From: Bacteroidota bacterium
GTDB taxonomy: Bacteria; Bacteroidota; Ignavibacteria; Kapaibacteriales; UBA961
DNA length: 32,146 nucleotides
NCBI GenBank assembly: GCA_018266765.1
Contig: JAFDZU010000050.1
Span: 1-32,146 of the forward strand
Direction of reading: 5' to 3'
Shown here: positions 13,853 to 21,445 of the stretch, in pieces
Position numbering within the stretch: position 1 is the first letter of the stretch
Layout of the letters: the number at the start of each line of letters is the position of its first letter
The notes under the pieces: model-generated
What the model was told of the DNA's origin: nothing
Seen by the model: the letters and a program-made list of their open reading frames with translations, nothing else
The model's database searches: none
Made by a program: the position numbers and the translations under genes

Positions 13853-16800
13853 TTATTCTGTATCTTGTGAAGGGGGAGGATTAAGAGGCAATCGAACAGT
13901 AAAAACAGTTCCGACTCCAACTTTACTTTTTGCTTCAATAGTGCCACCGTGAAATTCAAGCATATCTCTTACAATTGATAATCCCAACCCAGTACCAGTT
14001 ACCAAACCTACATTAGAACCTCTGAAAAATGGAGAAAATAAATGTTTCATTTCCTCATCAGGAATGCCAATTCCACTATCGGTTACTTGTATTATGACAA
14101 AATCATCTCCTTCGGAGCGAAGTGTTAACATTATATTTTTATTTGTAGCAGAATATTTAGATGCATTTGTTAATAAATTTATTATTATCTGTTTTATCAT
14201 CCTTTTATCACCTTGGATTTCTGGTAAGTTTTTTGGTAAAGTAATTACGAGATTTTGTGATTTAGTATTGAGTATTCCATGAAGTTCCGAGTGAATTCTA
14301 TTCACCATCTCATCAAGATTGATTTTTTCGGGAATAAATTTATCCTTGAAAGATTGAATTGAAGATTGAAGTAAAAAGTCATTCATCAGCTCAGTCAGGT
14401 CTTGAATTCTTGACTTTATTTTATCGATTTCACCTATTCTTTGTCCAAAATCTAATTTAGATGCATAAGCAGCAAGTAAATCTGCTGAAATTTGAATTCC
14501 CGTTAATGGAGTACGGAATTCATGAGAAATAGTGGTAATAAACTGCGTTTTCATTGCATTTAATTCACGTTCTTTAGCGAGTGTTTTTTGTAATTCTTCT
14601 TCACTTTGTTTTCTCTGAGTTATATCATATAAAAATATGCGAATTGTTGAAGTATCAGGAACGAAAAACACACGTTCATCAAACACATGGTTATTAATAT
14701 ATATTTCCCTCTGCAATGGATTATTCGGTTGTTTAATAAGCTCATCCATTTGTTCAAAGAGCCCGGCAAATATTGGACTGTTTAACTGTTGTGACTTCAC
14801 ATCAGGAAAAAATTTTTTTGCTTCAGCATTACAATATGTTATTTCTCCGCCTTGTGAAAGTTCGAATATTGGTTGAGGATTCTGTTCAGGAAATGATGCA
14901 AGATGATGAAGAATTTGTTCTGATTTTTTACGTTTAGAGATATCTACCGCTGCTTGAATTGTTACAACAACCCCGTCAGGACGAACAAATTTTGTGATAT
15001 GATTTTCAAGCCATATATACTGACCATTTTTACGTTTGAAACGATAATCTATATCAAAATTAGTGAATTCTCCTTCTAATTTAATACTATCAAATTTTTC
15101 CAAAACATGTTTTAAATCATCAGGATGTATAAAGTTAGGGTTTTCTTTCAACATTTCATATTGCCATTCTTCTTGTGTAAACCCCGATTGTTTTATAAAT
15201 TCAGCATTAACATAATCAATATGAATTTCTTTTCCAGGAAATCTTGAAGATTGAGATACTCCAAGCGGCAATGAATTAGCGAGAAACCGAAATTTATTTT
15301 CACTTTCTTTCAATTTTTTCTCGGCTTCTTTTTGCAGTGTAATATCAACGGCCGAACCAACTATTTCAGTTACTTTTCCATTTTCGAACAATGGCTCTAA
15401 AGTAAAAAAATAATATTTATTACCAGGTATTTCGGACTCAAACGAAACAGATTCTCCTGCAAAAACTTTATGAAGATGTGGCAATACTTTAGTTTGGTAT
15501 TCTATACCAAATAATTTACTTGGTGTCTCACCTTGTATAAGCTCAGTAGTAAAATCTCCGGCTAATTTACCTTCACGTAATGAATATACATACTCACCAT
15601 CTTCACGACGATACATTTTAATAATTAAATTTTGAAGATTCTTTACAGTTCTTCTGAAATCTTCTCGTTGTGCTTGGGCAAGAGCCGCTTCAGCTCGTTT
15701 TAAGTCGGTAATATCTACAGATATTTGTGTGATTGTTTCCGGAAGACCTGTTATCAGATTGTGTTCAGCAAAACAATATACTTCTGTCCAAATTATTTCA
15801 TTTTTTTTACCAATATTACGATACTGAGTCTTCAATACGTCTTTAGCACCAGATTGAATCCATTTTGTGGCTTCGGTTATTTGTCGTTCTCGGTCGTCAG
15901 GATGAAAAATTGATGATGCTTCCTCAATACTCAGTTTAGAAAATTCATCAATAGTTAAACCTATTTGTTTTTCAAATTCTTTATTAGCAAATTCGTATTT
16001 ATGTTCATCAATAATCCATCGAACAATTCCGACCGGAGCGTTTTCAACCAAATTTTTATATTTTTGAGAACTCTTCTCGATATGTAAATTTGCAGCTATT
16101 CTTTCTGTTATTTCTGAAATTGTACCAACTGTACCAATAATTATACCATCAACATTTCTAAAAGGAGCAGCATTAATTTCCAACCATTTTTCTTGGTTGT
16201 AAGGGGTTTTAATTTTTACTAAATATTGTTCTGATATTCCTTTTAATCTTCTTTCCAACCTTGCTAGGTATTCATTATTATTTTCACCTTCATTTAAAAC
16301 TAAAATTGATGAATTTTTACCAATCAAATCATCAGAATTTAATCCAAATATTTCTGATATTCGGTTATTCACAAATTCAATGTTTCCCTCTGTATCAGTT
16401 AAAACAATACCTTCATTCAAACTTTGCATTATTGTTCGAAGTTTAAGTTCACTTTCTATCAGGGCTTCCTCTGTAAGACGTTTTTCGGTAACGTCATTTG
16501 TAAATGTAAGAATAACTCTTTCATTATTTAAAACTATTATAACAGATGAAATTTCTACGTCTTTAACTTCTTTGTTAAGATTTTTGATTTTTATTAATGC
16601 CGGTTGTAGTATTTTTCCTTCTTGTAACATCATTGATATCCGATTTTTTACTAAATCTACTGATTCAGGAAGTAAAAACTCTATTGGACTTAATCCTAAC
16701 AGTTGAGATTCATTTTCTGCCCCTATAAACTTTAAACCCGCATTATTAGCATAAATGATAGTCTCTTTATGAATAAAAATAGGAATTGGTAAATCATAAA

Positions 16801-18352
16801 TTATTGTTCTAAATCGTTCTTCGCTTTCTTGGAGATTTTGTTTGGCAACAATTCGATTTGTAACATCATTTTGCATTCCGATAAAATGGGTAATATTTCC
16901 TTTATCATCTTTCACTGGTGATACAGCAAGTTCATTCCAAAACATGGTACCGTCTTTTTTATAATTCCTAAGGATAGTTTTTACATGTTTACCTTCAACA
17001 ATTGCATCGTATAACTCTTTAATTCCCGGTTGGTTTTTATCATCATTTTGTAAAAATTTACAATTTCTACCTAAAATTTCTTCATCTGAATACCCTGTTA
17101 TAGTTTGAGCAGCAGTATTTACATAAATTATAGGGTTATTAAGTTGGGTAGCATCAGAAATCATAATTCCTGTGAGTGACTCTTCTATAGCACGGTCTTT
17201 GATGTAAAGTTCATGCAATGTTTTAATTTTTTCAGTGATATCTCTCACTATCACTACAACACTATTTTCAGTAGAATAGGCTACCCGCGCTTCGTGATAA
17301 AATAATCCGTTTGCTTGTTGTAACTCAAATTCAAATGTTATAGTTTTGCGATCAGAAATAGATTGATGAATTGCTTCTAAGGTTTGCATTGCCACTTTTT
17401 TCGGCAAAAAATCTTTGATGTTTTTTCCAATAAACTCTTCTGGAGGAGCAAGAGGTTCAATACCGTGCCCTGCACGATAATCAATATAAGTACCTTTATT
17501 ATCAAGATAAAGAATCATATCAGGGATTGCATTTAAAAGTGAACTTTTATAACGTTCGCTTTTAATCAAAGCATTCTGTATTTCTATTCTGTCTGTTATA
17601 TCTCTAAATGCAAATATTTCGTGATACTCACCCAATGGATTATCCTTGAGAAAGGACGCACTGCCTTCAATTGGGATTCTTTTGCCTGATTTTGATTTAA
17701 TCCAAATTGTTGATGGAAGATTCTGGCGATTATTGAGACGTAACAATTCTAATTGTTCATCTGAATTAAATTTAGAAGTATCTGCAAAATTAAAAACTTC
17801 CTCAAATTTTTTACCAATTCCCAGTGAACTTGACCATTCGGTAATAGATTCGGCAAATGAATTCATAAAAACTATACGACCTTTTTTGTCTGTAGCAATA
17901 ACTCCTTCTCCTATAGAATCTAAAGTTGCCGAGAGCAATTTCATATTTTCTCGTTCACGATTTTCCATCCGTTGTTTATATACTGCCATTTCCATTGTAA
18001 TTCGAAGTTCATCTTCTTGAAATGGTTTGAGTAAGTATCCCATTGCACCAACTTGTTTTGCTCTATTGATGATACTGTCATTTGAATATGCAGTAAGGAA
18101 AATTAATGCGACATTGTAGATTGTGATTAAAGTTTTAGCCGTTTCTATCCCATCGAGTTCACTTTTGAGCATGATATCCATCAAAACAATTGTAGGACAG
18201 TCTTTCCTAACTGTTTGTTCAAACAAATGAATAGCTTCTTCGCCTGATGAAGCGATATCTACATTATGATATCCCAGTTTTTCGAGAATAATAACAATAT
18301 TTTTTGCAACTATTTGTTCATCTTCTACAATTAAAACTCTAATTTCACCCAT
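13853..18352 (-). CDS. LOV-containing REC-(PAS)9-histidine kinase (hybrid sensor kinase)
   Basis: The 1499-residue cytoplasmic protein has no membrane segment. An N-terminal receiver domain (1-125) has Asp59 in VLMDIML as phosphoacceptor, with D11, T87 and K109. Nine PAS domains follow, at about 138-255, 266-375, 388-500, 508-622, 632-752, 762-885, 895-1006, 1015-1140 and 1148-1245. The third is a LOV domain: NNPIIYVN, GRNCKFLQ with Cys431, N463 in LRNY, N473 in FWNEL and Q494 in FIGMQ. It would bind FMN and form a Cys adduct in blue light; Lys432 replaces the usual Arg. The HisKA phospho-His is H1277 (ISHEFRTPL). The HATPase has N1396, DSGIGIP and GTGLGLSI. AGGA lies shortly upstream of the ATG, and the frameshifted kinase ends 18 bases upstream. 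No output domain is present, so signals must leave by phosphotransfer. Confidence 0.93.
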   Translation of the reverse strand: MGEIRVLIVEDEQIVAKNIVIILEKLGYHNVDIASSGEEAIHLFEQTVRKDCPTIVLMDIMLKSELDGIETAKTLITIYNVALIFLTAYSNDSIINRAKQVGAMGYLLKPFQEDELRITMEMAVYKQRMENRERENMKLLSATLDSIGEGVIATDKKGRIVFMNSFAESITEWSSSLGIGKKFEEVFNFADTSKFNSDEQLELLRLNNRQNLPSTIWIKSKSGKRIPIEGSASFLKDNPLGEYHEIFAFRDITDRIEIQNALIKSERYKSSLLNAIPDMILYLDNKGTYIDYRAGHGIEPLAPPEEFIGKNIKDFLPKKVAMQTLEAIHQSISDRKTITFEFELQQANGLFYHEARVAYSTENSVVVIVRDITEKIKTLHELYIKDRAIEESLTGIMISDATQLNNPIIYVNTAAQTITGYSDEEILGRNCKFLQNDDKNQPGIKELYDAIVEGKHVKTILRNYKKDGTMFWNELAVSPVKDDKGNITHFIGMQNDVTNRIVAKQNLQESEERFRTIIYDLPIPIFIHKETIIYANNAGLKFIGAENESQLLGLSPIEFLLPESVDLVKNRISMMLQEGKILQPALIKIKNLNKEVKDVEISSVIIVLNNERVILTFTNDVTEKRLTEEALIESELKLRTIMQSLNEGIVLTDTEGNIEFVNNRISEIFGLNSDDLIGKNSSILVLNEGENNNEYLARLERRLKGISEQYLVKIKTPYNQEKWLEINAAPFRNVDGIIIGTVGTISEITERIAANLHIEKSSQKYKNLVENAPVGIVRWIIDEHKYEFANKEFEKQIGLTIDEFSKLSIEEASSIFHPDDRERQITEATKWIQSGAKDVLKTQYRNIGKKNEIIWTEVYCFAEHNLITGLPETITQISVDITDLKRAEAALAQAQREDFRRTVKNLQNLIIKMYRREDGEYVYSLREGKLAGDFTTELIQGETPSKLFGIEYQTKVLPHLHKVFAGESVSFESEIPGNKYYFFTLEPLFENGKVTEIVGSAVDITLQKEAEKKLKESENKFRFLANSLPLGVSQSSRFPGKEIHIDYVNAEFIKQSGFTQEEWQYEMLKENPNFIHPDDLKHVLEKFDSIKLEGEFTNFDIDYRFKRKNGQYIWLENHITKFVRPDGVVVTIQAAVDISKRKKSEQILHHLASFPEQNPQPIFELSQGGEITYCNAEAKKFFPDVKSQQLNSPIFAGLFEQMDELIKQPNNPLQREIYINNHVFDERVFFVPDTSTIRIFLYDITQRKQSEEELQKTLAKERELNAMKTQFITTISHEFRTPLTGIQISADLLAAYASKLDFGQRIGEIDKIKSRIQDLTELMNDFLLQSSIQSFKDKFIPEKINLDEMVNRIHSELHGILNTKSQNLVITLPKNLPEIQGDKRMIKQIIINLLTNASKYSATNKNIMLTLRSEGDDFVIIQVTDSGIGIPDEEMKHLFSPFFRGSNVGLVTGTGLGLSIVRDMLEFHGGTIEAKSKVGVGTVFTVRLPLNPPPSQDTE

Positions 18353-18370: not shown

Positions 18371-18985
18371 TTAATTACCGACAAAATCAATACTAATTTC
18401 TGTTCCACCATACTTTGTTTCTTTACCACAATGTATACGGATATTTCCACCTAATTGAACTGTAAGCATTTGAACTAATTGTAATCCTAGAGTTGCCGGA
18501 TTATCAATGATCTTTACATCCGATATACCTAATCCATTGTCAGAAACAACCAAATGAATTTGAGACTTATCGCTGAAAGTACGAAAGATAGTTAAAGCAA
18601 TTTTACAAATATTCTCATTTCCCTGAGAATATTTTAATGCGTTGGAAACTAACTCATTTATAATAAGTCCACATGGAACAGCCAAATCAACAGATAAGTC
18701 AAATTCTTCTACTTCAATACAAAACTCTACCGAATTATTATAACTATGGTATGTTCTCTCTAAGAATTGAACGAGATAATGAACATAAGTCTTTAAATTA
18801 ATTGCTCCAACATCAAATGATCTATACAGTTGTTCATGGATTAAAGCCATAGTACGAACTCTACTTTGGCTATCATTAAAAATCGCAAGCATTTGTTTAT
18901 CAGTGATTTGTTCTGCTTGAAGATTAAGCAAACTCGATATTATTTGCAAGTTGTTTTTTACTCGATGGTGAATTTCTTTTAGCAA
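18371..18985 (-). CDS. C-terminal part (HisKA_2-HATPase) of a frameshifted GAF/PAS histidine kinase
   Basis: This frame encodes the kinase core. HisKA_2 helix [20 protein letters not shown] contains the phospho-His (codon 18970-18968, residue 591 of the reconstructed protein). The HATPase has [20 protein letters not shown] and the [14 protein letters not shown] end. The TTG at 18985 is not a convincing start: the frame is open upstream to at least 19147 and encodes the rest of PAS3 and the linker ([31 protein letters not shown]). The whole is one 789-residue kinase interrupted by a one-base frameshift at 19147-19153. HisKA_2 kinases typically signal to separate receivers, and the next gene, 18 bases on, begins with a receiver domain. 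It is functional only if the shift is a sequencing error or is bypassed. Confidence 0.8.
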
Positions 18986-19071
18986 TAATTCTTTTTCATG
19001 TAGTGATTTTTGAAGCGTCAGTTCAGCATTTTTTCTTTCGGTTATTTCACGTGAATATCCTTCATAATATG

Positions 19072-20739
19072 CTATTTTTTCGGTATTTGAGGTTTCTTCG
19101 TATACAGCTCGAGCGCCTTGTGTAAACCATACAATTTCACCATTTCTTTTTTTCCTTGGAATTCAAATCCACTAATATGACCATGTTTATTGAGTAAATC
19201 TATGAACTCACTCCTTGATTCTGGGAGCACGTAATTATCCATTGCATCTCGAGATTCCATCAATTCTTCCGGGGAATCAAAACCTAACATCGAAGCCATT
19301 GTCTTATTAACACTTAAGAATTCGCCGGTTGGTAATACCTGAAATATTCCAATGATGGCATTTTGAACAATACTTCTATAATTATGTTCTGCTTTTTCTA
19401 ATCGAGCTTGAACTGTTTTCCTTTTGGTGATATTTAATCCACTAAAGCATATTTGAGTAACCTCTCCATTATCGCTTACAATTGGAACAAAACTTATTTC
19501 GATCCATACTTTCCTACTATTATATGTTTTTAATTCTATCTCTGATACTATATGACTTTTTCCTGAAAAAGCTATATCACAAAATTCTCTGTACTGTTGT
19601 TGATATTCTTTTGATAAAATCTGTAATATACAATCTCCTTCAACTAAATCCTTACCCCAAAAAGAAATTGAACCAATTTGTGCTACTCGATTAAATGCAA
19701 GAATATTTAACTTTTTATCTAATAGAATAAACGCTTGCAAACTATTATTGAACAACGCATTGAGATGTGAGTTAGTTTCGCGAAGTTTTTCTTCATTATT
19801 TCTACGATGAGTGATATCAATTAACACTCCTGAAATGTACCAATTATTTTTATTAACATCTGTTTTGACACATACAGCCAAATCATTTATCCAAATATAC
19901 TCACCATTGGCATGGAGGCATCTAAATTCTAAATTTAAGACACCCAAATAGTCATTTTGTTCCCATTTTTGAAATTCTAAATCTATAGTTTTAAAATCAT
20001 CAGGGTGAATTAGTCCAACAAAATAACTAACATCTACTAAATATTTTTCAATGGGATAACCAAGCATTCCAACAATATTATTTGAAATATATTCTCGTTC
20101 CTTGTCATGAAGGATTTCTTTGTGAATACTTGTTTCATATAAAACTATCCCCGGAAGTTTTTCAAGCATTGATGAAAGTCTGAATTCAGTTCTGATTAGT
20201 TGTAATTCTAGAATTCTTTGCTCGATTTGTGCCGCTTTTTGTTGACGAATGATACCTCTGCGAACATCAAGATGTTCTGCAGCTTGGCGTGCCAATGCTT
20301 CCATCGCATCTACTTCAAGCGAAGTAAATTTTCTTGGTAAAAAATCTACTGCACATACCGAACCTAAAATAAGATTTTCTTTGTTTTTAATAGGAATACT
20401 TATACACGATCTGAGATTTAAATCTCCTGTTACAAATGGGTTATGTCGTAATAGCTCGTGTTCTTCTAAGTTTTCTGTTATTAATCTCTCACCCGACTGA
20501 ATCATTACAGTACAAAAAGAAATCTCTCGAGGAATACTTTTGAGTTCAATACCGGTTATAGATTTAAACCATTGAATCTCACTGTCTATAAAACCCACGA
20601 AAGCAATAGGAGCTTTACATATTACAGATGCAAGCAAGGCAATATCGTCAAAAATCTGCTCATTAACCGAGCCGATAATCTGCAATTCATTAACAGCTGC
20701 TATGCGATCTGCTTCAGTTGAATGAGTATAAAATTTCAT
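19072..20739 (-). CDS. N-terminal part (GAF-PAS-PAS-PAS) of a frameshifted sensor histidine kinase
   Basis: The frame gives 555 residues, of which the first 531 are in the original phase. Residues about 15-165 are a GAF domain of the kind found in front of GGDEF and kinase proteins ([55 protein letters not shown]). PAS1 spans about 185-312 ([22 protein letters not shown]). PAS2 spans about 325-440 and PAS3 starts at about 450 ([22 protein letters not shown]). PAS3 is cut by the frameshift in the GFEFQGKK strand; the last 24 residues ([10 protein letters not shown] onward) are out of phase and spurious. The true product would continue into the HisKA_2-HATPase frame. No membrane segment is present, so it senses a cytoplasmic signal of unknown nature. 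It starts 19 bases after the pdxH stop. Confidence 0.88.
19147..19153 (-). other. Frameshift site: A7 run, candidate -1 slippery heptamer
   Basis: On the coding (minus) strand, seven A residues follow GG. In the upstream frame they read A AAA AAA and are followed by G. Reading one A twice (equivalent to inserting one A) joins the GAF/PAS frame to the kinase-core frame without loss: the residues become [20 protein letters not shown], an ordinary PAS sequence. Without the shift, 25 off-frame codons run to a stop at 19072. The cause may be an indel error in a homopolymer, a real inactivating mutation, or ribosomal or transcriptional slippage. Confidence 0.88.
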
Positions 20740-20758
20740 TATATGATTTTATTGGATG

Positions 20759-21445
20759 TTATGGGTATAATCGTTTGATTATCCATTCACCATTTTGCTG
20801 TAATTCATAGATAACTCTATCATGCAAACGGCTTGCACGTCCCTGCCAGAATTCAAATTTAGTCGGAACGACAAGAAATCCTCCCCAAAATTCAGGCAAT
20901 GGTATGGCTTCCCCTTCATATTTCATCTTCACTTCATTGAATTTTTCATCTATTTCTGTTCGTCCTGATACTACTCTGCTTTGTTTCGATGCCCATGCTC
21001 CTATCTTACTTTCTCGTGGACGAGAATTGAAATATTCATAGGATTCCTCAACAGATACTTTCTCAACCATTCCTTCAATGCGAATTTGACGTTCCAACTC
21101 TCCCCAATAAAAAAGGAGTGCTGCATGAGGATTAGATAGTAATTCTTGCCCTTTTTGACTTTCATAATTGGTCGCAAACATAAATCCTCGTTCACTCATC
21201 TCTTTTAGTAATACAATTCTTGCTGAAGGGATTCCGCTTTTATTTGCAGTAGCAAGAGTCATTGCATTGGTATCAGATATTCCAGATTTTTGTGCTTCGA
21301 TGAACCATTCTTGGAATTGTTCAAAAGGGTTTTCTAAAACTGATTTTTCATCTAAAGAACTCAACATGTAATCGCGTCGTAATAACTGTAAGTCTAATGT
21401 AGTTTTCAAATTGATATTACACTTGTGATTACCGACAAAGTACAA
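20759..21445 (-). CDS. pdxH: Pyridoxamine/pyridoxine 5'-phosphate oxidase
   Basis: PdxH oxidises pyridoxine- or pyridoxamine-5'-phosphate to pyridoxal phosphate, using FMN and oxygen. The 228-residue product has the LRRDY N-terminal segment, NPFEQFQEWFIEAQ, the FMN-binding ARIVLLKEMSERGFMFATNY and SQKGQELLSNPHAALLFYW, RQIRIEGMVEKV, SRPRESKIGAWASKQS, and the C-terminal EFWQGRASRLHDR that contacts the substrate phosphate and FMN. E. coli PdxH has 218 residues. The ATG at 21445 is used because the conserved RRDY lies before the next Met. It heads a minus-strand group with the two kinases (19-base and 18-base gaps), so they may share a transcript. FMN use is a possible thread to the LOV kinase but could be chance. 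Confidence 0.95.
   Translation of the reverse strand: MYFVGNHKCNINLKTTLDLQLLRRDYMLSSLDEKSVLENPFEQFQEWFIEAQKSGISDTNAMTLATANKSGIPSARIVLLKEMSERGFMFATNYESQKGQELLSNPHAALLFYWGELERQIRIEGMVEKVSVEESYEYFNSRPRESKIGAWASKQSRVVSGRTEIDEKFNEVKMKYEGEAIPLPEFWGGFLVVPTKFEFWQGRASRLHDRVIYELQQNGEWIIKRLYP

Follow-up and report, generated by a model that had tools for sequence, protein, structure and literature searches.

Organization of the sensor kinase locus

On its minus strand, the window (the whole stretch of DNA analysed, 32,146 nucleotides) carries the parts of a sensor histidine kinase in two reading frames. The upstream, sensor frame runs from 20739 to 19072 and encodes 555 amino acids, ending at a stop codon 24 residues past a run of seven A residues (A7) at 19153-19147; the downstream, kinase frame is open from 19162 to its stop at 18371. 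The junction reads GG-AAAAAAA-G, and the codons of the window at this site are CAA GGA AAA AAA GAA, which the sensor frame translates as QGKK. We found that a -1 step, one base back after AAA AAA, joins the two frames into a protein of 531 + 258 = 789 residues. The coordinates, phase and motif of the junction are thus as given in the original prediction, which had described a sensor kinase split by one base at a slip-prone A run. The features of the locus are as follows.

20759..21445, minus strand: upstream neighbour, pyridoxamine 5'-phosphate oxidase family (ORF, Pfam)
19072..20739, minus strand: upstream frame as assembled, 555 aa (ORF and orthologue alignment)
20272..20661, minus strand: GAF (PF01590), residues 27-156 (Pfam)
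19825..20091, minus strand: PAS_3 (PF08447), residues 217-305 (Pfam)
19417..19752, minus strand: PAS_4 (PF08448), residues 330-441 (Pfam)
19207..19380, minus strand: first part of the last PAS (PF00989/PF13188) (Pfam)
19147..19153, minus strand: A7 run, site of the frame change, equal to the sequence of the relative G001 without one T (sequence, orthologue comparison)
18371..19147, minus strand: downstream (-1) frame, 258 aa, end of the last PAS plus HisKA_2 and HATPase_c (Pfam, frame joining)
18752..18976, minus strand: HisKA_2 (PF07568), residues 58-132 (Pfam)
18389..18667, minus strand: HATPase_c (PF02518), residues 161-253 (Pfam)
13853..18352, minus strand: next gene, 18 bases downstream, 1499 aa, intact, with a receiver, several PAS, HisKA and HATPase_c (ORF, Pfam)

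Pfam assigns GAF, PAS_3, PAS_4/PAS_9 and PAS/PAS_8 to the first frame, and HisKA_2 (E 4.5e-28) and HATPase_c (E 3.9e-09), both exceeding the Pfam cut-offs, to the second. The two domains required of a HisKA_2 sensor histidine kinase therefore lie together in the downstream frame, and the kinase half stays open for 258 residues beyond the shift, in agreement with what had been predicted for it.

Orthologues read through the junction in a single frame

We compared the locus with G001 and G002, two other genomes of the window's genus (the window's own genome is G000). In a search of 99 genomes at E 1e-60, these two gave the only matches besides that of the window's own genome; the kinase half, at E 1e-30, matched in 2 of the 13 other genomes of the family. 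A scan of genome contigs returned distant matches only, at 2 loci, and a search of plasmid records returned no match.

The G001 orthologue crosses the site in a single open frame, 757 codons long, that runs off the contig end, and its last PAS (PAS_9, residues 427-531) spans the equivalent of the break. The window aligns to this gene in two frames, at 62.9% identity over 515 amino acids and then 67.7% over 257, with 531 residues of the upstream frame agreeing with the intact orthologue and the last 24 out of frame. These alignments indicate, far beyond chance, that the sensor and kinase frames are one gene broken by one base. As in the window, a receiver-PAS-kinase gene follows in G001, 64% identical over 1498 amino acids to the downstream gene. 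The G002 gene is split over two contigs: the junction and kinase piece form one open frame of 360 codons, and the sensor part, preceded by a pyridoxamine-phosphate-oxidase-like gene, lies on the other contig. The orthologue evidence thus covers two orthologues, that of G002 being in two contig pieces.

Sensor and kinase, which occupy different frames in the window as assembled, share one frame in both relatives. In G001 and G002 the frame crosses the junction uninterrupted, giving QGKKRSGEIAWF and QGKKRNGEIAWF, and both genes specify Q-G-K-K-R-[SN]-G-E-I-A-W-F without a shift. At the site, G001 has CAA GGT AAA AAA AGA AGT GGT, with an A7 in a different register from that of the window, and G002 has CAA GGG AAG AAA AGG AAT GGT, with no homopolymer. 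G002 is thus the kind of orthologue, free of any run and reading straight through, that the original prediction had named as evidence against itself. Since the G001 run lies in another register, the window equals the G001 sequence minus one T, or that sequence after a T-to-A change and the loss of one A. From the sequences, loss of one T from a G001-type sequence would suffice in one step, without slippage in a homopolymer; the window sequence could equally have arisen in two steps, by a silent change of T to A and then the loss of an A from the resulting A8.

Identity to G001 at codon positions 1, 2 and 3 is 0.72, 0.82 and 0.49 in the sensor half and 0.76, 0.81 and 0.45 in the kinase half. 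This matching pattern argues that constraint acted on both halves through almost the whole of the divergence, and suggests that in the kinase half sensor-like constraint either lasted until very recently or continues today. The earlier view that any decay must be recent is borne out by this pattern and by the open kinase half.

The break lacks the conservation and stimulators of a programmed frameshift site

Among the options raised at the outset was programmed frameshifting that yields both a sensor-only and a full kinase product. The break does carry a slippery heptamer in phase, GG-A_AAA_AAA-G. To place this match in context, we counted in-frame A_AAA_AAA in a sample of the same genome (980,855 bases from 54 sources, including the window) and found 140 sites in 526 ORFs of at least 200 codons; these ORFs also hold 213 A7 runs and 69 longer ones. 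The motif is thus a property of this genome's coding sequence, at 38% GC, and the match at the break is by itself not remarkable.

The break is conserved in 0 of the 2 orthologues. The hairpin that the original prediction proposed looking for after the heptamer was not found: four stretches downstream of the motif fold no better than their shuffles (z +0.46, +1.08, -0.16 and +1.47). Upstream, the only Shine-Dalgarno (SD)-like stimulator candidate is an AGGA that overlaps the motif (distance 1), and none lies at a working distance; the range used for such sites is 6-17 bases in the available portion of PMC4066793. The unshifted product would end inside the last PAS and so would not be a neat sensor-only protein. 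Programmed frameshifting fails on conservation, since the fused protein comes from a single frame in each of the two relatives, and nothing in these comparisons supports it.

We also asked whether the kinase half could be translated independently. In its frame, TTG codons at 18985, 18949 and 18931 are the earliest candidate starts, and the first ATG, at 18892, already lies inside HisKA_2. With no ATG before the phospho-acceptor domain, the kinase half has no normal start of its own, and this possibility was rejected.

An IS1-like transposase elsewhere in the genome (L028:15900-16680, contig C16; a single full-length copy was found) consists of two overlapping frames, InsA-like and InsB-like, which meet at an A8 run (L028, around 16305) with the same -1 geometry as the kinase break. 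If this element was ever active, the organism may slip on A runs; by analogy, a trace of full-length kinase could possibly arise from the A7 template.

Other single-base breaks in these assemblies

A hexamer scan of the 0.98 Mb sample produced 20 candidate breaks, of which we looked at the window's own and eight others. Those eight comprise four likely breaks in non-mobile genes, two transposase-like cases, one ordinary gene pair and one case at an N gap; two further candidates have an N in or next to the site. Comparison with orthologues confirmed the break in one of the four non-mobile cases only, a gene at L025:1867 (minus strand, contig C13) with Pfam S4 and PseudoU_synth_2 that we take to be an RluD-like pseudouridine synthase. 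Its Pfam domain is split into 2-98 and then 107-152, and the gene is whole in the relatives, with 368 (G001) and 367 (G002) open codons. The other three, at L025:16434 (plus), L042:13035 (minus) and L058:13940 (plus), are tentative: the genes are OmpA-like, thioredoxin-like and, in one case, without a Pfam match, none of the breaks lies at an A run of at least 7, and searches for relatives gave none in one case, distant family members only in another and a partial result in the third. At L052:6867 (plus), a gene that looks transposase-like by eye seems to be divided over two frames close to a five-A run.

Breaks were also sought by pairwise comparison. A two-HSP filter demanding an overlap below 10 residues missed the window's break and a loosened filter found it; a Markov/Viterbi scan missed this known break and was not used. 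With the loosened filter, 1 of 63 G001 ORFs with a match of at least 45% to the G000 sample was split, namely the counterpart of the window's gene. The reverse comparison gave 1 of 69, a G001 gene on contig C6 (L068:3291-4594, minus) that is presumably ffh; it is one base shorter than that of G000 and broken in frame, with 94-98% amino acid identity on either side. The ffh gene is essential in most bacteria, and its frame break in G001 is probably an assembly error. Assemblies in this genus, then, do carry such breaks. Together, these results suggest that these assemblies have a low background of single-base breaks in conserved genes, some of which are probably errors.

Origin of the frame break

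Our results indicate that the locus very probably represents an ordinary one-base deletion in a continuous GAF-PAS-PAS-PAS-HisKA_2-HATPase_c sensor histidine kinase gene, with no special decoding. We infer an unbroken ancestor, a recent loss and no rescue by recoding. The base would have been lost at or right beside the A-rich GGN-AAA-AAA-AGA (Gly-Lys-Lys-Arg) stretch of the last PAS. Counting against this reading are the position of the break on a slip-prone heptamer, the small set of two orthologues and the IS1-like A8 junction, and a low level of full-length product from the A7 template is possible.

Whether the deletion is a real mutation or an error of the assembly is about an even question, and both of these options from the original list survive. 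An error of the consensus is given close to an even chance; the organism would then carry one further base at the site, and its gene would encode a normal cytoplasmic-type kinase. In keeping with this, one-base breaks are likely in other conserved genes of the same assembly (the RluD-like gene and, tentatively, the OmpA-like, thioredoxin-like and unnamed ones), there are 24 N runs in the 53 stretches sampled from its contigs, the presumed ffh of G001 is one base short, and the break falls at a homopolymer. Such breaks are few, however: with the present one there are about five in 0.98 Mb, and none of the rest is at a long A run, which argues that the assembly is not homopolymer-prone; its completeness is given as 100 and its contamination as 0.29. 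A genuine and recent indel that abolishes function, whether fixed or segregating, is a serious contender, though we put it somewhat short of even. If the base is truly absent from the cells, translation would stop 24 residues on, leaving a fresh pseudogene whose product would be a truncated sensor with a broken PAS and no kinase. The same sequence evidence fits this history, indel breaks have accumulated elsewhere in the genome, and a HisKA_2 paralogue, 44% identical in the kinase part, is encoded at C83. Yet the 258 downstream codons show no second damage and both halves look equally constrained, so that a null mutation would have to be very recent.

The remaining alternatives grant the A run a function or an effect. 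Translational or transcriptional slippage (-1 frameshifting or poly-A slippage), whether programmed or accidental, might yield some full-length kinase. A_AAA_AAA is a known -1 motif, with a proven IS cluster mentioned in the available part of PMC4066793; in endosymbionts, slippage in transcripts restores reading frames at long poly-A tracts, as far as the accessible text of PMC5009743 describes; and the IS1-like A8 junction lies in the same genome. Against this stand the unshared break, the unexceptional downstream folds, the lone overlapping AGGA and a truncated product that would end inside a PAS domain, and we regard such slippage as improbable. Phase variation, in which slipped-strand mispairing in the A run would switch the kinase on and off, was disfavoured more strongly and is very unlikely. 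One base of slip would restore the frame, and the portion of PMC3930126 at hand describes phase variation of Campylobacter jejuni flgS/flgR through homopolymer tracts, those of flgR being A and T runs. The tract here, however, is neither unusually long nor conserved, as would be looked for in a phase-variable gene: A7 is short and common in this genome, and G002 has no run at the site. A combination of the two, in which the A7 slips at a low rate to give mostly kinase-less sensor and little full kinase, and a one-base change of the run toggles the ratio heritably, is a long shot; if true, it would make low-rate slippage on A7 a tunable two-component switch.

Apart from its annotation, an ordinary deletion here is of small importance. 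The appropriate entry for the locus is a single sensor kinase gene carrying a frameshift, rather than two genes or a recoded one. More generally, in an A-rich genome the presence of a perfect slippery heptamer where a frame breaks counts for little unless the same break is found in orthologues.

Comparison with known systems

With a PAS sensor followed by HisKA_2 and HATPase_c, the gene resembles soluble sensor histidine kinases of the HisKA_2/HWE type, from which it differs in being one base short between sensor and kinase and in having GAF and three PAS domains in front. The nearest solved chains by sequence are 4r39 and 4r3a (Blue-light-activated histidine kinase 2), and the kinase half matches 4r39_A at E 2.7e-11. 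The site shares A_AAA_AAA in the right phase with IS-element and dnaX-type -1 frameshifting on A-rich heptamers, but unlike those systems it is without a stimulator, conservation or a useful truncated product. As with the phase-variable FlgS of C. jejuni, a one-base tract change would switch the frame of a two-component gene, whereas the tract in question is missing from one of the two orthologues and is known here from one assembled run length. According to the available sections of PMC3711429, the GeneTack rules attribute a frame break that stands alone and has BLASTP support to sequencing error or indel mutation, and for homology-validated breaks of this lone kind the authors expect sequencing error to be the usual cause. 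It is these singleton frameshifted genes that the locus matches with no notable difference, its break being validated by homology and absent from the relatives.
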